A stretch of 64,000 bases of DNA, taken from the NCBI RefSeq assembly GCF_030538655.1, contig NZ_JAUNTO010000001.1:270809-334808 (forward strand), read 5' to 3'. A program made the translations under genes and the position numbers. This stretch comes from Paracoccus sp. (in: a-proteobacteria). Its GTDB lineage: Bacteria; Pseudomonadota; Alphaproteobacteria; Rhodobacterales; Rhodobacteraceae. This document shows positions 4,467 through 62,762 of the stretch, one piece after another (within the stretch, counting starts at the first letter, position 1; every line of letters begins with the position of its first letter). The notes beneath the pieces are model-generated. The model ran no database searches. It saw only the letters and a list, made by a program, of their open reading frames with translations, and was not told the DNA's origin.

Positions 4467-5486
4467 ATGTATGCCACCGTCATGCACGGTCCGCGCGATG
4501 TGCGGTTTGAACAGGTCGAAGACCCCAAAATCCTGAAGCCCACCGATGCCATCATCCAGCTTGCCGCAACCTGCATCTGCGGATCAGACCTGTGGCCCTA
4601 TCGCGGGGCGCAGGCGCTGGATCAGCCGATGCATATGGGGCACGAATATTGCGGCACCGTGATCGAGGTCGGTTCCGAGGTGAAAACCCTGCGCCCCGGT
4701 CAGTTCGTCGTGGGCAGCTTTTGTCTGTCGGACAACACCTGTCCGCATTGCCAGTTCGGGTTCCAGTCATCCTGCGTGCAGCGCGAATTCATGCTGGGCG
4801 CGCAGGCCCCCTTTGCCCGCGTGGCGCTGGCCGACGGCACGCTGGTCGCGACGGAACACACGCCCGACGCCGACATGATCCCGCATATGCTGGCCGTGTC
4901 GGATGTGCTGGGGACGGGCTGGTATGCCGCCGTTGCATCGGGCGTGCGTCCGGGCGGCACGGCGGTCGTGGTGGGTGACGGCGCGGTGGGGCTGATGGGC
5001 GTCATGGCCGCGAAGCAGCTGGGCGCGGAACGCATCATCGCCATGTCGCGCCACGAACCCCGGCAGAAACTGGCGCTGGAGTTCGGCGCAACCGACATCG
5101 TGGCCGAACGCGGTGCCGATGGCATCGCCCGTATCATGGACCTGACCGACGGGGTGGGCGCGGAATCGGTGCTGGAATGCGTCGGCATGGCGGAATCCAT
5201 GGAGCAGGCCATGGGTGTCTGCCGTCCGGGCGGCACCATCGGCTATGTCGGCGTGCCGCATGGGGTTAATCTGGAAGGGCAGCAACTGTTCTTTAAACAA
5301 CAGCGGATGCTGGGCGGTCCGGCCCCGGTGCGCCGCTTCCTGCCCGACCTGATGGCCCGCGTGCTGGACCGCCAGATCCAGCCCGGCAAGGTCTTTGATC
5401 TGGTCCTGCCACTGGCCGAGGTCGCCGAGGGCTATAAAGCCATGGACGAACGCCGCGCCATCAAGACGATGCTGACGGTATCGTAA
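4467..5486 (+). CDS. zinc-dependent alcohol dehydrogenase family protein
   Basis: A medium-chain dehydrogenase/reductase. The catalytic-zinc region is visible (CICGSDLW, then GHEYCGTVIEVG) and the nucleotide-binding fold follows (VVVGDGAVGLMG, residues about 165-180). The structural-zinc lobe reads NTCPHCQFGFQSSC, which has three of the usual four cysteines, so the structural zinc may be absent or use another ligand, as in some subfamilies. The start at 4467 is supported by AAGGAGA six bases upstream; length 339 aa is normal. It stands alone between the acylase and an empty stretch. The substrate is not predictable. Confidence 0.85.
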   Translation: MYATVMHGPRDVRFEQVEDPKILKPTDAIIQLAATCICGSDLWPYRGAQALDQPMHMGHEYCGTVIEVGSEVKTLRPGQFVVGSFCLSDNTCPHCQFGFQSSCVQREFMLGAQAPFARVALADGTLVATEHTPDADMIPHMLAVSDVLGTGWYAAVASGVRPGGTAVVVGDGAVGLMGVMAAKQLGAERIIAMSRHEPRQKLALEFGATDIVAERGADGIARIMDLTDGVGAESVLECVGMAESMEQAMGVCRPGGTIGYVGVPHGVNLEGQQLFFKQQRMLGGPAPVRRFLPDLMARVLDRQIQPGKVFDLVLPLAEVAEGYKAMDERRAIKTMLTVS

Positions 5487-55844: not shown

Positions 55845-55919
55845 GGCCCGTTCGTCTATCGGTTAGGACGCCAGGTTTTCAACCTGGAAAGAGGGGTTCG
55901 ATTCCCCTACGGGCTGCCA
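55845..55919 (+). tRNA. tRNA-Glu (anticodon TTC)
   Basis: Cloverleaf is complete: acceptor GGCCCGT / ACGGGCT, D arm with GGTTAGGAC, anticodon arm CAGGTTTTCAACCTG with anticodon TTC, T arm GGGGTTCGATTCCCC, discriminator G and encoded CCA. The integrase gene follows 160 bases later on the same strand, so the 3' half of this tRNA is the likely attachment site of the element. Confidence 0.97.
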
Positions 55920-56079: not shown

Positions 56080-57294
56080 ATGGCGCTGACTGATACAGCA
56101 TTGAGGGGCTTGAAGCCTGAATCCAAACCGAAAAAATACAGCGACGGCGGCGGGCTGTTCTTGATGGTCAACCCGAACGGCTCCAAGCTGTGGCGTCTGG
56201 CCTATCGGTTCGACGGGAAACAGAAGACTCTTGCCTTCGGCGCTTATCCTGCCGTGAGACTGGCCGACGCCCGCGCGCTGCGGGACCGGGCCAAGAAGGC
56301 GCTGGCTGATGGTATCGACCCGGCGCGGCATACCAACATTGCCACGACCGATCATGACACCTTCGCGGCTATCGGCAAGGAATGGTTGGCGGCTCAGGAA
56401 CCGACTTGGGCACCGAAGTATGCCCCGCAGGTGATGCGCCAGTTTGAACGCGACGTGTTTCCCGATCTGGGTCAGCGGCCAATCACTGAGATAGAACCCA
56501 GCGAAGTCTTGAAGGTGCTAAGGGCTGTTGAGGCGCGCGGCGCGCAGGACATAGCCAAGAGGCTGCGGCAGAAGATCAGCGCCATATTCCGCTTTGCCAT
56601 CGCCACCGACCGCGCGAAGCTGGACCCTGCCGCCAACCTGAAAGGCGCTCTAAAGCCGCCGCCTAAGACCCGGCACATGGCCGCGCTGCGGGCAGCCGAC
56701 ATGCCCGAATTCATGCAGAAGCTGCGGGCGTTCGACGGCGACCCCAAGACGGTGCTGGCACTGGAACTGCTGATTCACACCATGACCAGAACGAATGAAG
56801 TGCGCTATGGGCGCTGGGATGAAATCGACGGCGATCTGTGGCGCATACCCGCGGACAGGATGAAGGCCGGGCGCGATCACATCATCCCCCTGTCAAAGCA
56901 GGCCAAGGCGATCTTGGACAAGCTGCGGGCGCTGGCGGGCAAATCCGAATGGATAGCCGAAGGGTCACGCGGCAAGCCCATGTCTGAAAATACTATGCTA
57001 TTCGCGCTTTACAGGATGGGATACCACAGTCGCGCGACAACGCACGGCTTCCGTTCAACCGCGTCGACTATATTAAACGAATCCGAATTATGGCGGGCCG
57101 ATGCAATCGAGCGGCAATTAGCCCATGTGCCAACGGATTCGGTTCGCAGCGCATATAATGCGGCTTTGTATTTAGATGAGCGAAATCGGATGCTGCAATG
57201 GTGGTCCGATAAGCTGGATTCATTTGAATCTGCTGGAATTAGTCAACAGGTGACTAAAAACCCGGACACCGATATAAGCGATCTGCTTATCTGA
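56080..57294 (+). CDS. int: tyrosine-recombinase integrase (DUF4102 arm domain)
   Basis: Integrates and excises the element at tRNA-Glu. The 404-aa protein has an N-terminal arm-binding domain (DTALRGLKPESKPKKYSDGGGLFLMVNPNGSKLWRLAYRF), a core-binding helical domain (about 95-190) and the catalytic domain: MTRTNEVRYGRW (Arg), THGFRSTASTILNE (His-x-x-Arg), LAHVPTDSVRSAYNAA (His and Tyr nucleophile). Length matches P4/IntS-type integrases. Codon 320 on is more A/T-rich than the host genes. A terminator follows. Confidence 0.95.
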   Translation: MALTDTALRGLKPESKPKKYSDGGGLFLMVNPNGSKLWRLAYRFDGKQKTLAFGAYPAVRLADARALRDRAKKALADGIDPARHTNIATTDHDTFAAIGKEWLAAQEPTWAPKYAPQVMRQFERDVFPDLGQRPITEIEPSEVLKVLRAVEARGAQDIAKRLRQKISAIFRFAIATDRAKLDPAANLKGALKPPPKTRHMAALRAADMPEFMQKLRAFDGDPKTVLALELLIHTMTRTNEVRYGRWDEIDGDLWRIPADRMKAGRDHIIPLSKQAKAILDKLRALAGKSEWIAEGSRGKPMSENTMLFALYRMGYHSRATTHGFRSTASTILNESELWRADAIERQLAHVPTDSVRSAYNAALYLDERNRMLQWWSDKLDSFESAGISQQVTKNPDTDISDLLI

Positions 57295-57485: not shown

Positions 57486-59873
57486 ATGCCTCTAGATAAT
57501 AGCGAATCTGCCCGGCGCGGGCAAGACCTTTCTATTAAAAACTGCGACAGCATAGCTGACCTTTTGGAACTCTCTGAGACGCATGGAGACGCATCGGGAC
57601 ACCCGTTAGACGCCACGAACTGCGCCCTGATCGCGGCAGGTGCCTCGCTGCACTGGCTGGTCGCAGGACAGAAACGCCCGGTTGCCGCAGACTGGTCAGC
57701 TTTGCCGAATCAGACCGAATCGGACCTGCGCGGCAGCTACCGCCAAGGTGCTAACGTAGGCATTCGACTCGGCGAACCGTCGAAGGTTGGCACCGACTAC
57801 CTGCATCTGATCGACCTGGACGTGCGCGACCCCAGCAAGGCGGCTGAGGCATGGGGCGCGTTGTTGGCGATCTGGCCGCAGGCGCGAACCTATCCCAGCG
57901 TCATCAGTGGCAGCGGCGGCGAGTCTCGCCACCTTTATTTCCTGACCAGCGCGCCGTTCCGCAAGCACAAGATCGCCAAGTCGACCGGCTTCACAATGGT
58001 GTTCGACGCCAGCAAGGGCCGCGAGGTGAAGAAGAACGACTGGGAGATCGACCTTATGGGAACCGGCTCGCAGGCCGTTATCCCGCCGTCGATTCACCCT
58101 GACACCGGCTTGCCGTATATATGGGAACGCCCGGTCGATCTGACGCTGGGCGGCTTGGGCATGTGGGTCAACGCGGACCAGGTGGCCCGCTTCGGCGCGC
58201 GGCAGGATACCGGCAGCACCGGCGAACCCGCTGCCCGTCTTGATGAGGTGAACCCCGATCACTTGGCGCAAGCCTTGGCCTTTTTCGATGTCGATGACCG
58301 CGACGATTGGAAAGATGTCGGCATGGCGCTGCATCACCAATTCGCCGGATCGAACAAGGGCTATTCTATTTGGAATGAATGGGCCAAAGCATCCAGCAAG
58401 CACATTGAAAAAGACTCCCGCACTGTCTGGAAGTCATTCAAAGCCGATAAGCCCGGCGCGCTTGGAATCTCGCATCTATTCGACCGCGCCGGAATTGATG
58501 GCTACGGGCGCGGCGTCCAGGTGCTGGATGACGACTTTGACGATCTGCCGGAACTGCCCGTCTCGGGCAAGCGCAACCCTGTCAACGATTTGAACCGGGA
58601 TCATGCCGCCGTGATGATCGGGGGCAAGTTTCGTATCATCATTGAGAACGGCGGTGACTATGAGGTTTTCAACGACACCGAACTTCACAAAATGAATGCG
58701 AACAGGCGGGTGAAGGTGCCCGGCACAAATCGCAGCGAACCTGTCACGGCAGCCTGGATGCGTCACCCGCAGCGGCGAGAGTATCGCGGCGGGCTGGTAT
58801 TCAATCCCAAGGAAACGCCAGTTGGGGCCTATAACATCTGGCGCGGCTGGGCAGTGCAGCCCGACCCGGACGCTTCCTGCGACCTGTTCCTTGCCCATGT
58901 GCGGGACGTGATATGCGATGGCAGCGAGCGGGATTACCACTGGTTGCTTGGCTGGATGGCGCATCTGGTGCAGCACCCCGAACAGAAGCCCGGCACCGCC
59001 GTTGTGCTGCGCGGCGCAAAGGGCGCTGGCAAGGATACCGTGGGCCACTATCTCGGGGCGCTGTTCCCGCGCCACCATGTCACCCTGTCGCAGCCGGAAC
59101 ACCTCACCGGGCGCTTCAATGCCCACATGGAAACGGCGATCCTGATTCACCTTGAGGAAGGTTATTGGGCGGGCGATCACCGGGCAGAAGGCGTCCTGAA
59201 AAACCTCATTACCTGCCAGTCTCTCGAAATCGAGCGCAAAGGCATTGACCCTTACAAGATCGACCATTTCGGGCGGCTGCTGATTACCTCTAACGCGGAA
59301 TGGGTTGTGCCCGCGACTCCCGGCGAACGGCGGTTTTTCGTGCTGGACGTGTCGCCTGCCCATGCGAAGGACACAGCTTATTTCGGTGCGATTTGGAAGG
59401 AACAGGCAAACGGCGGCGCGGGCGCGCTGCTGCACTTTCTGCAATCGTTCGATCTGAGCGACTTCGATGTGCGCAACCCGCCCGAGACGGCGGCGCTGAC
59501 GCGGCAGAAGCTGGAAGGGCTGCGGAACGTCGACGCCTGGTGGTATGACCGGCTTAGCGAAGGCGACTTGTCGCATGGCGTCGGGGATGGCTTCGACAGC
59601 GATCAACCGACTTGGGAAACTTCGGCGATCACAGTCGCCCGTGACGCGCTGCGGTGTAACTATGAAGCATGGCTTGAGCGGCAAAGGTGGCACGGCGCGG
59701 CAATCTCTAGCGAACGATTTGGTAAGAAGCTGCTTGAGTTGTGCGGCGATATTCAGTCGACCCGCCCGCGCGTTTCTGGCGAAAGGACGCGGAGTTACAC
59801 GGTCCCGCCGTTGGCACAATGCCGCAGTGCATTTGCTACGTTCATCGGCAGTGAAGTGGACTGGGATCAATGA
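57486..59873 (+). CDS. primase-polymerase/helicase replication protein of the element
   Basis: A 795-aa protein likely to start replication of the excised element. Residues about 45-230 form a bifunctional primase-polymerase (AEP) domain: IDLDVRD, SGSGGESRHLYF and the later WEIDLMGTGSQAVIPPSIHPDTG. Residues about 260-340 are a PriCT-like domain (ALAFFDVDDRDDWKDVGMALHH, IWNEWAKASS). The C-terminal third is a superfamily 3-type helicase/DUF5906 ATPase: Walker A in LRGAKGAGKDTVGHYLG, a Walker B-like ILIHLEEGYW and the arginine-rich GERRFFVLDVS. It resembles P4 alpha-type and satellite primases. Two GAGACGCAT repeats fall near its 5' end. The stop overlaps the next frame (ATGA). Confidence 0.85.
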   Translation: MPLDNSESARRGQDLSIKNCDSIADLLELSETHGDASGHPLDATNCALIAAGASLHWLVAGQKRPVAADWSALPNQTESDLRGSYRQGANVGIRLGEPSKVGTDYLHLIDLDVRDPSKAAEAWGALLAIWPQARTYPSVISGSGGESRHLYFLTSAPFRKHKIAKSTGFTMVFDASKGREVKKNDWEIDLMGTGSQAVIPPSIHPDTGLPYIWERPVDLTLGGLGMWVNADQVARFGARQDTGSTGEPAARLDEVNPDHLAQALAFFDVDDRDDWKDVGMALHHQFAGSNKGYSIWNEWAKASSKHIEKDSRTVWKSFKADKPGALGISHLFDRAGIDGYGRGVQVLDDDFDDLPELPVSGKRNPVNDLNRDHAAVMIGGKFRIIIENGGDYEVFNDTELHKMNANRRVKVPGTNRSEPVTAAWMRHPQRREYRGGLVFNPKETPVGAYNIWRGWAVQPDPDASCDLFLAHVRDVICDGSERDYHWLLGWMAHLVQHPEQKPGTAVVLRGAKGAGKDTVGHYLGALFPRHHVTLSQPEHLTGRFNAHMETAILIHLEEGYWAGDHRAEGVLKNLITCQSLEIERKGIDPYKIDHFGRLLITSNAEWVVPATPGERRFFVLDVSPAHAKDTAYFGAIWKEQANGGAGALLHFLQSFDLSDFDVRNPPETAALTRQKLEGLRNVDAWWYDRLSEGDLSHGVGDGFDSDQPTWETSAITVARDALRCNYEAWLERQRWHGAAISSERFGKKLLELCGDIQSTRPRVSGERTRSYTVPPLAQCRSAFATFIGSEVDWDQ
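57576..57594. repeat. inverted copies of the arm-type repeat
   Basis: GAGACGCAT occurs twice (57576-57584 and 57586-57594), ten bases apart, the reverse complement of the ATGCGTCTC copies at 55942-56023. They lie within the primase coding frame, 1.6 kb from the attachment site. Confidence 0.55.
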
Positions 59874-60364
59874 TGGCTTCCAGTGCATTTCCGCAGCTTG
59901 ATTGCAGCCCATTTGCCTCGCATCCGGTCCACGTGGTCCAAGTGAGGGATGTTTTTGGTCCAAGTGCCGAAGCCAGAAAAGTCCAGCAAAATCAATGCCC
60001 GGTCCAAGTGGTCCACGTGGTCCACGTAGAATCCTGTTTTGATCTGGACGGTGTGACATTGGACGCAGCGACGGCACAGCCGCAGCCACAGGACGGCACA
60101 GCGTCAGCCCTGAATGAAACTACGTGGACCACGTGGACCACTTGGACCAGCCAACGAATCCAATGGGTTACGAGACGTCTTGCTTGGACCGGCACGTGGA
60201 CCACGTGGACCGGCTCAAGATTGGCTGTGACCGATGATCGACCGCAGTGCATTAACCTTTTGTTCCCACTAGGTTCTTCCGCAGGGTGGCAGGCCGCGGG
60301 GGGCATGGACCCCGATTCGCGACCCGCAGAAGAAAATTTCAAATTGCAAGGCCAAAATAGGTAA
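59870..60364 (+). CDS. possible 164-aa protein spanning the repeat array
   Basis: An ATG overlapping the primase stop opens a frame that ends seven bases before the terminase small-subunit start, so it fits the gene string. Most of the product is made by the repeats (PVHVVQV, QVVHVVHV, TTWTTWTTWT, TGTWTTWT) with no recognisable domain. One repeat (59957) is in another frame. An open frame also exists on the opposite strand through the array, because the 9-bp unit keeps any frame open. Coding status is doubtful. Confidence 0.3.
   Translation: MMASSAFPQLDCSPFASHPVHVVQVRDVFGPSAEARKVQQNQCPVQVVHVVHVESCFDLDGVTLDAATAQPQPQDGTASALNETTWTTWTTWTSQRIQWVTRRLAWTGTWTTWTGSRLAVTDDRPQCINLLFPLGSSAGWQAAGGMDPDSRPAEENFKLQGQNR
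59926..60211. repeat. mirror-symmetric array of twelve 9-bp repeats
   Basis: Six forward copies of GGTCCAMGT start at 59926, 59935, 59957, 60001, 60010 and 60019. Six reverse copies (ACKTGGACC, one GCTTGGACC) start at 60122, 60131, 60140, 60182, 60194 and 60203. The grouping is 2-1-3 then 3-1-2 around a centre near 60072. The two inner triplets form a perfect 28-bp inverted repeat (60001-60028 with 60121-60148). It lies between the replication gene and the terminase genes. Confidence 0.9.
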
Positions 60365-60370
60365 GCGCAG

Positions 60371-60991
60371 ATGACCTATCAAAACTCGACTACCCTGGAT
60401 GATTTGTTCATCACCGCCGATCCGGTGCAGCCCGCCCCGCTTAATCAGCGGGCCGCTGGCAGCCCTTCCCCGGCTAAGGCTACCCGCACACCCAGGAAGG
60501 CCGCAAAGCCTGCCACGGATAAAACGACAATTGCTGAGGGCATACCCAGCATCATGAATGAGGTTGAGATAGCCGCGCTGCTGGGAATCGCCACCTCGCA
60601 GGTCCGAACAAAGACCCGCGACGGCATTCTTGTGAAGGCGCGTGATGCCCGATGGGATGTGCGCGCGTCCCTGCAAGGCTATCTGGCCCAGTTGCGTGAC
60701 GGCACGGTGAAGGGCGGGGGGCAGGTTCCCGACGATCTGAAAGCGGCCAAGCTACGCCAGACCGAAGCCGCAGCGCAAAAACTGGAAATCGCCAATAGCG
60801 TTTCTAAAGGCGAACTGATTCCGGTCGCGGATGTGCGGCGCGAATGGACGACTCTCGCAATCGACCTGCGCACGGCGATCATGGCAATTCCCGCCCGCGT
60901 CACAACTCAGCTTGGGCTTGACCGGGAAGCGCAGGCGGCAATTGAGGCCGAAATCAGATTGGCACTAGAGGAAATCGCAGATCATGGATGA
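60371..60991 (+). CDS. phage terminase small subunit (Nu1-like)
   Basis: Recognises the packaging site on phage DNA. The 206-aa protein has a basic, disordered N-terminus (about 1-50), a helix-turn-helix (MNEVEIAALLGIATSQVRTKTRDGILVKARDARWDV, about 61-95) and a helical oligomerisation part (LRQTEAAAQKLEIANSVSKGELIPVADVRREW). It overlaps the large-subunit gene by eight bases. Family assignment rests on the HTH layout and context. Confidence 0.75.
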   Translation: MTYQNSTTLDDLFITADPVQPAPLNQRAAGSPSPAKATRTPRKAAKPATDKTTIAEGIPSIMNEVEIAALLGIATSQVRTKTRDGILVKARDARWDVRASLQGYLAQLRDGTVKGGGQVPDDLKAAKLRQTEAAAQKLEIANSVSKGELIPVADVRREWTTLAIDLRTAIMAIPARVTTQLGLDREAQAAIEAEIRLALEEIADHG

Positions 60992-62762
60992 TTTGATTAT
61001 CGGCCTGCGCCGCGATGTATTTGCAGCCATCAAGCCGCCCGCGCGCCTCGATCTGGCGGAATGGGTGGAAAAGAATGTTCGCCTGCCTGCTACTGTGGCC
61101 GCGCAATCTGGCCGCTTCAAACTGTTCCCGTATCAGGTAGAAATCGCCCGAAGCATGGGCAATCCTGCCGTGGAGCGGGTTTCTATATTGAAATCAGCCC
61201 GAGTCGGCGCAACTCAATTGATGGTTGCTGCAATCGGGCATTATGCGCTGAATGATCCGGCGGCGCAGATGGTGGTTATGCCGTCCGAATCCGATTGCCG
61301 AATGCTGATGACCAATATCATCGAACCGACATTTGCGGCCAGCCCGGCGCTGCGCAACGCGCTGCTGGAAGATGTGAGCGGGCGCGATACGATGCTTTCG
61401 CGCCACTATCCGGGCGGCTCATTGGCGCTTGTTTCTGGCGGCAGCCCTAAAAATCTGCGCGCCCGAACTGTTCGCACCCTTTGGGTTGACGAAGTGGACG
61501 GACTCGCGCTTTCCGCCGGTGATGAAGGTGATCCGGTTGCCTTGGCCATTCGCCGCACGATGACTTATTCAAACAGGCTAATCGTCATGGCGTCAACGCC
61601 GGTCGACGAAGAAACCAGCCGGATATTGCGCGCCTATAATGAAGGCGATTGCCGTATTTATCAGGTGCCTTGCCCGGAATGCGGCGAATTCCACGAAATA
61701 GAATGGAAGGATATTCAGTGGCCCGAAGGCAAGCCCGAAGCGGCTTATTATGTCTGCCCAAGCTGCGGCTGCGTGACGCAGGAAACCGAAAAGGCAAGGA
61801 TGGTCGCGGCTGGTCGATGGGTTGCGACGAAGCCCGAAGTGACCGGCCATCATAGCTATCGCCTGAACTCGCTTGTTTCGACTCTGCCGAATGCTGCCTT
61901 GGGCCGTCTCGCAACTGAATTCGTCGCAGCCAAGCGCGACCCGTCGTTGCTCAAGACCTGGGTCAACACGGTTCTGGGCCAGGCATGGCGTGATGACAGT
62001 GAGGGACTGGACGAATCCGACCTGATGGCACGGGCCGAACCGTTTTGCCTCGACCGAATACCGCCCGAGGTGCTGACGATCACAGGCGGGGCCGATATTC
62101 AGCGCGACCGCATCGAATTGGCAACTCTGGGCTGGACGGCTGACGGCGCGGCGCTGGTGCTGCGGCATGACGTGTTCTGGGGCGATCCGCTGGCCGGTGA
62201 CGTATGGGTGGACCTGTTCGACGCGCTGCGCCGCAGCTTTCCGCATCCACGCGGCGGAACCCTGCGCTATGACGCGGCCCTTATCGATTCCGGCGATGGC
62301 GTCACCGTCGACGCGGTCTATGACGCGACCCGCGGCAGGTCGCATCAGCGCATCTTTCCGTGCAAAGGCGTATCGGGCTGGAAGCACCCGACTTTAACGG
62401 TCGGGCAGGCACGGCAGAAAACAGTCAGGCTTCAACTGGTCGGAGTCGACGGCGTTAAGGCGCGCATTATGCAGATGGTCGCCGCTGGCGCGTTCCGTTT
62501 TTCGGATCGCGTATGCGATGCAAACTGGTTCGAGCAATTCGTATCGGAGAGATTGCAAGTCAGATACAGCCGCGGCGTTCCGGTGAAGGAATGGCACCGC
62601 CTGCCCGGTCGCCGCGCTGAGGTTTGGGATTGCTGCGTTTATGCTGTGGCGGCTAAATCTCTGGTGCAAATAAATATGGACCGCCGCGCCGATGAACTCG
62701 CATCAGCCGCAGCACCAAAGAAACAACCTGCCGTGATTAAGTCAGCGTGGTTGAGCCGATAA
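60984..62762 (+). CDS. phage terminase large subunit (GpA family)
   Basis: ATPase and nuclease that cuts and packages phage DNA. The 592-aa protein has a variant Walker A ILKSARVGATQLMV, Walker B TLWVDEVDGL, and a zinc ribbon CPECGEFHEIEW...CPSCGCVTQE typical of the lambda GpA family. The C-terminal nuclease part contains GGADIQRDRIEL and ALIDSGDG acidic residues. It overlaps the small subunit. Length is slightly below lambda GpA. Confidence 0.9.
   Translation: MDDLIIGLRRDVFAAIKPPARLDLAEWVEKNVRLPATVAAQSGRFKLFPYQVEIARSMGNPAVERVSILKSARVGATQLMVAAIGHYALNDPAAQMVVMPSESDCRMLMTNIIEPTFAASPALRNALLEDVSGRDTMLSRHYPGGSLALVSGGSPKNLRARTVRTLWVDEVDGLALSAGDEGDPVALAIRRTMTYSNRLIVMASTPVDEETSRILRAYNEGDCRIYQVPCPECGEFHEIEWKDIQWPEGKPEAAYYVCPSCGCVTQETEKARMVAAGRWVATKPEVTGHHSYRLNSLVSTLPNAALGRLATEFVAAKRDPSLLKTWVNTVLGQAWRDDSEGLDESDLMARAEPFCLDRIPPEVLTITGGADIQRDRIELATLGWTADGAALVLRHDVFWGDPLAGDVWVDLFDALRRSFPHPRGGTLRYDAALIDSGDGVTVDAVYDATRGRSHQRIFPCKGVSGWKHPTLTVGQARQKTVRLQLVGVDGVKARIMQMVAAGAFRFSDRVCDANWFEQFVSERLQVRYSRGVPVKEWHRLPGRRAEVWDCCVYAVAAKSLVQINMDRRADELASAAAPKKQPAVIKSAWLSR

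Follow-up and report, generated by a model that had tools for sequence, protein, structure and literature searches.

A mirrored twelve-copy repeat array as the probable replication origin of an integrated phage-like element in Paracoccus

The stretch of DNA considered here, referred to below as the window, is a 64,000-nucleotide part of a contig from Paracoccus sp. (NZ_JAUNTO010000001.1, positions 270,809 to 334,808), and towards its right-hand end lies an integrated phage-like element in which a primase-helicase gene is followed directly by a mirrored array of twelve 9-bp repeats. Comparison with related elements makes it very probable that this array is a symmetric iteron replication origin, akin to those of phage-inducible chromosomal islands (PICIs) and of phage P4, and that it would be read by the C-terminal domain of the primase.

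The array and its setting

All twelve copies contain the word GGTCCA, six on each strand, and they extend from 59926 to 60211. The first-pass annotation, made from the letters of the window, had described six forward and then six reverse copies of GGTCCAMGT (M being C or A); this is exact for 11 of the 12, whilst the copy at 60182-60190, GGTCCAAGC, departs from it in its last base. Copies on the + strand start at 59926, 59935, 59957, 60001, 60010 and 60019 and those on the - strand occupy 60122-60130, 60131-60139, 60140-60148, 60182-60190, 60194-60202 and 60203-60211. These coordinates bear out the grouping first described, 2-1-3 followed by 3-1-2, with group centres within about 6 bp of one another, the midpoints being ~60074.5 for the triplets, ~60073.5 for the singles and ~60068.5 for the pairs. 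The mirror symmetry is exact for the inner triplets, where 60001-60028 forms a perfect 28-bp inverted repeat with 60121-60148 and even the C/A variants are mirrored between the two arms, both as originally noted; it is only rough for the outer parts, where start-to-start distances from pair to single to triplet are 22 and 44 bp on the left and from triplet to single to pair 42 and 12 bp on the right.

In shuffled versions of the whole window GGTCCAMGT occurred 0.63 times on average and at most 4 times, none of 100 shuffles reaching 11, and the tandem pair GGTCCAMGTGGTCCAMGT has 6 matches in the genome (an assembly 90% complete), all of them inside the array. The + strand copy at 59957 stands, as had been noticed, in a different reading frame from the other + strand copies. 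The twelve-copy array is neither a chance product nor a gene, and its parts are as follows.

59926..59943, + strand: left outer iteron pair (GGTCCACGT, GGTCCAAGT), from word search
59957..59965, + strand: left single iteron, from word search
60001..60027, + strand: left inner iteron triplet with a 9-bp period, from word search and inverted-repeat comparison
60028..60121, no strand: centre between the triplets, with 100 bp between GGTCCA cores, from the GC profile; presumed melting region
60122..60148, - strand: right inner iteron triplet, from word search and inverted-repeat comparison
60182..60190, - strand: right single iteron with its last base off, from word search
60194..60211, - strand: right outer iteron pair, from word search

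Two iteron sets therefore lie on either side of a central region, as in origins of the PICI type, and the first copy is 52 bp from the stop codon of the primase gene, so that the array is immediately 3' of the gene for the putative initiator. Direct repeats bracket the array, with CCGCAGTGCATT occurring twice exactly (59822-59833 and 60242-60253) and 59861-59889 matching 60225-60253 at 72% over 29 nt; these may be a sign of past cassette-like insertion or exchange of the array. The non-iteron stretch from the right triplet to the right single (60149-60182) is well conserved in the window's clade (loci L042, L057 and L047) and is perhaps a host-factor site.

The genes around the array are these.

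55845..55919, + strand: tRNA-Glu gene adjoining the integrase gene, likely attachment site
56080..57294, + strand: tyrosine integrase
57486..59873, + strand: gene for the primase-helicase, presumably the initiator, with Prim-Pol, PriCT_2 and DUF5906 helicase domains and a winged helix at the C-terminus
59628..59870, + strand: coding part for the C-terminal winged helix of the primase (about residues 715-795), which presumably reads the iterons
59784..59786, + strand: codon for Arg767 in the wing, counterpart of an Arg that is Gly in relatives with GATCC-type words
60371..60991, + strand: small terminase subunit (TerS), phrog_57
60984..62762, + strand: large terminase subunit (TerL), gpA type

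The order running rightwards is thus tRNA-Glu, integrase, primase-helicase, array, TerS and TerL, which confirms the terminase genes that had been placed after the array, and the contig stops at the end of the window. PICIs and capsid-forming satellites are small elements with integrase, primase, terminase and head genes and without tail genes. The nearest relative found, L042, is a 13,977-base contig whose primase shares 80% identity in its C-terminal half; it contains an integrase, a putative xis/regulator, head decoration, adaptor, capsid and portal genes, TerL, TerS, the array and the primase, no tail genes were seen among the 8 further open reading frames (ORFs) scanned, and by analogy its gene set resembles that of a capsid-forming satellite. 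Another contig, L096 (12,347 bases), carries the array and a small terminase gene at opposite ends, as if it were a circularly permuted whole satellite.

The fold model of the primase (mean predicted local distance difference test score, pLDDT, 87.3) ends in a winged helix, with Arg767 adjoining the wing tip, and from this model and its fold matches the presumed initiator is a helicase with a C-terminal winged-helix domain, as in PICI-type systems. We infer that this domain reads the iterons from the comparisons of words and wing residues described below, and the simplest account of the array is that the primase would read each copy. RFX DNA-binding domain profiles match the corresponding end of two other primases, L056 and L061, the match to the window's primase family being weak (E 0.024); RFX1 reads DNA with its wing, and the matches fit the idea of reading by the wing for that reason. 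The origin-binding domain of P4 alpha was not among the matches listed in the fold search, a list filled by one domain and therefore uninformative on this point.

Recurrence of the array beside primase-helicase genes

Similar arrays were sought by DNA pattern, defined as two inverted doublets 76-106 bp apart, which gave 20 genome and 51 viral stretches (71 loci), with the reversed word as a control (10 stretches). A primase was counted as of the window's type by a profile of 19 C-terminal halves and if its gene ended no more than 700 bp upstream. Such a gene was found at 23 of the 71 pattern loci, three of which (L059, L064 and L087) have weak primase matches only, and at 0 of the 10 control loci. 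Among the 48 pattern loci without such a primase 35 lie inside open frames of at least 250 codons, as do 8 of 10 in the control and 6 of the 23 that are primase-flanked. An open frame was considered as the mark of a coding repeat and rejected; by itself it decides nothing, because those 6 loci share it and because L045 and L070, which belong to the 35, adjoin primase-helicases of other classes. Indeed, where neighbours of the 48 were tested, six of eight turned out to be primase-helicases from other classes, carrying a DUF5906 or VapE helicase domain, including planctomycete, Desulfobacteraceae and Sulfurovum records, with the array on the 3' side in five of the six and on the 5' side in the Sulfurovum record. 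The array therefore accompanies primase-helicases and not one protein subfamily. In the Sulfurovum record (L056, 4022-4134) the inverted GGTCCA doublets lie 5' of a DUF5906/Pox_D5 primase-helicase gene, opposite to the usual side, and a further mirrored GGTCCA array (L055, 7521-7656) has a sigma-70-like gene as its nearest neighbour, in a stretch that stops 344 bp past the array. When a narrow pattern was run against 385 genomes from the class, it matched only the window's own, probably owing to the differences in word and the sparseness of such elements, and the DNA of the array region had no match among 50,697 phage records.

The second approach started from the primase protein. A scan with its C-terminal half gave 281 viral loci, of which the best 80 were taken and 79 examined, L008 being left out as it is on the same contig as L042; the full-length locus scan covered loci through L178. 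A loose count took copies of one 6-letter word from 30 bp before to 420 bp after the primase stop, with 60 shuffles per locus, and L155 and L177 were too short for it. At least 7 copies of one word were found at 32 of the remaining 77 loci, on both strands in all 32, with a maximum of 6 in shuffles. By a strict caller, for which two inverted doublets are required, 34 of the 79 loci have arrays (28 near the primase and 6 farther away), as do 17 of 17 loci picked earlier for having one. These counts include related loci, and degenerate arrays escape detection as exact 6-letter copies are required. Outside the strict set, some loci show at least 6 copies by loose counting or an array 0.6-4 kb away (for example L113, L120, L128 and L149). 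Several contigs of the pattern search were refound by protein (L119=L096, L124=L092, L131=L072, L134=L033, L138=L095, L154=L108 and L159=L026). In an order-wide genome scan the primase was matched in 30 of 390 genomes, the window's own included, and seven of these 30 loci, chosen by eye, have what seem to be arrays, in still other words, immediately after the gene (L215, L217, L220, L221, L223, L229 and L232).

Viral contigs of 40-74 kb (L017, L083, L086, L117 and L137 among them) also carry such arrays next to primases. The genome of Roseobacter phage RDJL Phi 1 (L237) has a mirrored CTATAC array at ~4714-4991, grouped 1-1-3 and 3-2 by exact copies, with no annotated gene there, ~2 kb behind the primase. 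These cases suggest an origin type that is common to phages and satellites.

Variation and switching of the repeat word

Whilst the layout recurs, the word does not stay the same. The 6-letter words called included GGTCCA, GATCCA, TGGTCA, GTCACC, CGTCCA, TGTCCC, GTCCAT, GAACCT, CTGCCC, GGTGTC, GTCTAG, GAACAG, CAGGGT and GTGAGT; about a dozen are distinct, since some other calls (TCCCAC, TCCCAT, GTCAGG and TGGTCC) are windows of longer words overlapping with these. Same-strand neighbouring copies no more than 14 bp apart are spaced by 9 bp in 216 of 261 cases (redundant loci included), and in the satellites L124 (GGTCCA), L123 (GATCCA) and L122 (TGATCC) the spacing from the primase stop to each copy is equal or almost so. 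For array measurements L015, L131, L136 and L159 were dropped as redundant, and L054 was dropped from the centre-GC and spacing comparisons and from those of arms and word residues, 39 of 51 arrays being measurable for centre GC and 37 for the arms. The centre is poorer in GC than the flanks in 30 of the 39. Between the triplets of L063, L118, L150 and others the centre contains alternating purine-pyrimidine runs of 40, 46 and 29 nt, possibly easily melted or Z-forming DNA; the longest such run in the window's centre is 5.

A comparison that points to the reader of the words is that between two closely related satellites, L096/L119 and L190/L123, whose primases are 95.8%, TerL 95.6% and TerS 98.2% identical and whose array-region frames are 54% identical. 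L096/L119 uses GGTCCA at 12 positions; in L190/L123 eleven of these twelve positions read GATCCA and one has kept GGTCCA. The primases of L119 and L123 differ at 30 of 709 residues, with 11 of the differences in the last 97 (Fisher p = 0.001). When, within this clade, three primases beside GGTCC-type words (L119, L124 and L126) were compared with three beside GATCC-type words (L123, L125 and L122), the distant L127 being aligned with these six and kept out of both groups, a single column was fixed and different, Arg697 in L119 (the equivalent of the window's Arg767) against Gly. In a tree of the helicase part, with the last 100 residues omitted, the GATCC rows do not group, L123 joining L119 at 100/100 and L124 coming next at 98/96, and word and residue therefore changed together more than once. 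A wider alignment took in 58 C-terminal domains beside arrays, for which twelve words were assigned by eye and five of them marked provisional; the wing column is Arg in 48 of the 58, all 25 domains with GGTCC words having Arg there and all 3 with GATCC words having Gly.

Weighing the readings and comparison with known origins

The first choice of the first-pass annotation, an iteron-type origin to which the upstream primase-helicase binds, finds good support in these sequence comparisons, because the array recurs beside primase-helicase genes, because near relatives keep the positions of the copies, and because words change in concert within arrays, with one change linked to one wing residue. 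For the element in the window we infer binding, melting, the assembly of two helicases and origin function alike. Primase subunits would bind the 9-bp iterons through the C-terminal winged helix, and the two opposed iteron sets would place paired helicase assemblies facing the centre, whose ~100 bp would be melted by their ATP-driven motion; the Prim-Pol domain would then prime both strands and replication would be bidirectional.

Several observations weigh against this reading. The centre of the window's array is hardly poorer in GC than its flanks (0.58 and 0.60), so that it lacks the AT-rich centre of a PICI-type origin. No strict array was found in the stretch searched at 45 of the 79 protein-selected loci, and in L111, L114, L115, L116, L121 and L172 the array is 1-3.6 kb from the primase. 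It had been stated beforehand that homologues having this primase and no array would count against an origin, and here the outcome is mixed, since beside the 34 strict arrays some loci have looser or more distant ones and the rest have none in that stretch. The link to the wing residue comes from six sequences, and the distant L127 (GGTCCA) has Gly at this column in the 7-row alignment and Arg in the 58-row alignment. Arg also accompanies GAACCT and GAACAG and Gly is also found in L181 (provisional word TCCCAT), so that the column is no general code. A second switched pair, L122 and L092, has TerS at 92.0% and primase at 90.5% identity and therefore does not tell the two possible readers apart. 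Finally, hhalign gives the window primase a probability of 15 against P4 alpha and 7 against the primase of EcCICFT073, the PICI of E. coli CFT073, which provides no firm link.

Of the alternatives, a packaging (cos or pac) site read by TerS has the gene order in its favour, as TerS and TerL genes directly follow the array in the window and TerS and TerL matches come after it in L042, L046 and L063. It would nevertheless seem highly improbable, because the word switched from GGTCCA to GATCCA whilst TerS stayed almost unchanged (an argument that the second switched pair softens, with its lower TerS identity), and in addition the TerL match of L026 begins 2.7 kb past the array and the closest match to the layout is the replication origin of EcCICFT073. 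The other alternative raised at the outset, an RNA hairpin, was widened to any functional stem-loop, in DNA as a cruciform or in RNA, of the kind suggested for the pRN1 origin and phage BIP-1. The + strand of the array does fold far better than shuffles (z -6.9), and according to PMC4234260 pRN1 requires a stem-loop 3' of its prim-pol/SF3/winged-helix gene (SF3, superfamily 3 helicase). Such a fold is however a trivial outcome of inverted repeats, and between the words only 59% of the bases agree from one arm to the other in the 37 arrays, against 28% between elements (the caller having presupposed identity of the words), so that long stems are often broken where the words are kept. Furthermore, the single and outer copies, several of them in the opposite orientation to their neighbours, share the word of the triplets, and no Rfam family matches the array. 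On account of the arm match and the shared word a stem-loop is very unlikely to be the functional feature.

There is little to recommend an operator array that regulates the primase itself or the late genes and is not an origin. Its position between primase and terminase genes could suit such a role and iterons often double as regulators, yet the array is on the 3' side of the primase gene, and a functional origin has a matching layout. Least credible, to the point that we would practically dismiss it, is a coding repeat of the 164-aa open frame at 59870-60364. That frame is open in the window and long frames also occur in relatives, but 9-bp repeats alone keep a frame open, a 10-bp gap in L042 of the window's own clade shifts the inner triplet to another frame, and the array-region ORFs of L190 and L096 share 54% identity, where their primases and both terminase subunits share 95-98%. 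The 164-aa frame does not encode a conserved protein, and the changes of frame among close relatives speak against a protein product, in keeping with the earlier preference for a function of the DNA.

It is possible, though we put this forward tentatively, that the 2-1-3 and 3-1-2 origin architecture behind a primase-helicase gene is common to satellites, temperate phages and the phage isolate RDJL Phi 1 across several phyla, and that the word within it is a swappable address, the arrays being re-spelled in concert as the wing of the initiator changes and new replication-compatibility groups arising, with at least one natural switch tied to a single Arg/Gly exchange. Near-identical initiators beside different words provide natural pairs in which the specificity of initiator for origin can be tested without engineering, and the mirrored layout is a simple sequence sign by which origins may be located in unannotated prophages.

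The first-pass annotation knew of no described origin with such a layout; this does not hold, as EcCICFT073 has nearly the same arrangement and the ori of P4 has half of it. In EcCICFT073 a rep-ori segment sustains plasmid replication, according to PMC6092414. Its exact TCTACC copies, 3' of the primase gene, are at 16, 25, 71 (inverted), 93, 104 and 113, followed by copies facing the other way at 144, 155, 177 (itself inverted within that set), 223 and 232, which gives 2-1-3 and 2-1-2, the order found in the window with one right-triplet copy unmatched. As in the window, opposed iteron sets lie directly 3' of the primase gene and the initiator has a DUF5906 helicase domain, which P4 alpha also shares. 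The differences are the word, a centre of ~25 bp against 100 bp, singles that are inverted as they are not in the window, an AT-rich region (reported in PMC6092414) where the window's centre is not AT-rich, and an initiator with no Prim-Pol among its Pfam matches where that of the window has one. For want of an AT-rich centre the window's array is not filed as a strict PICI-type origin and is taken only to work like one.

In phage P4 the type-1 repeats of the ori annotated in GenBank are grouped 3-1-2 with the single inverted, which corresponds to one half of the array, and more copies are found in crr, immediately 3' of the alpha gene. P4 alpha binds these repeats via its C-terminal winged helix. 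P4 differs in having a half at ori and a separate crr and no single mirrored array, in its TOPRIM-type primase, and in its word, the P4 copies being TGTTCACC-like where the window has GGTCCAMGT. The iterons of the Staphylococcus aureus pathogenicity islands (SaPIs) are also in symmetric order. As in the window they lie directly downstream of the helicase gene, and the SaPI5 primase-helicase is among the best fold matches; in SaPI5 and SaPIbov1 the C-terminal domain of the Rep helicase reads these iterons, apparently as two hexamers (PMC7581432).

The pRN1 and BIP-1 origins share with the window an inverted-repeat origin 3' of a prim-pol/SF3/winged-helix gene, and differ in that PMC4234260 describes a stem-loop, with no origin iterons and no specific binding by the replication protein seen; the window has iterons, and in most relatives the arms are imperfect. 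For the helicase and C-terminal region of the window's primase, the best match both in sequence and in fold is the primase-polymerase of phage NrS-1 (in fold, its CTR); unlike the window's, its recognition site is one 8-nt sequence with two genome copies according to PMC7102993. A literature search by titles and abstract openings, covering few subscription papers, found neither the array in alphaproteobacterial prophages nor the exact word string. By analogy with these systems the mechanism and layout are of a known kind; what sets the array apart from known origins is its word, its 100-bp centre that is not AT-rich here, its Prim-Pol initiator and its spread to phages.
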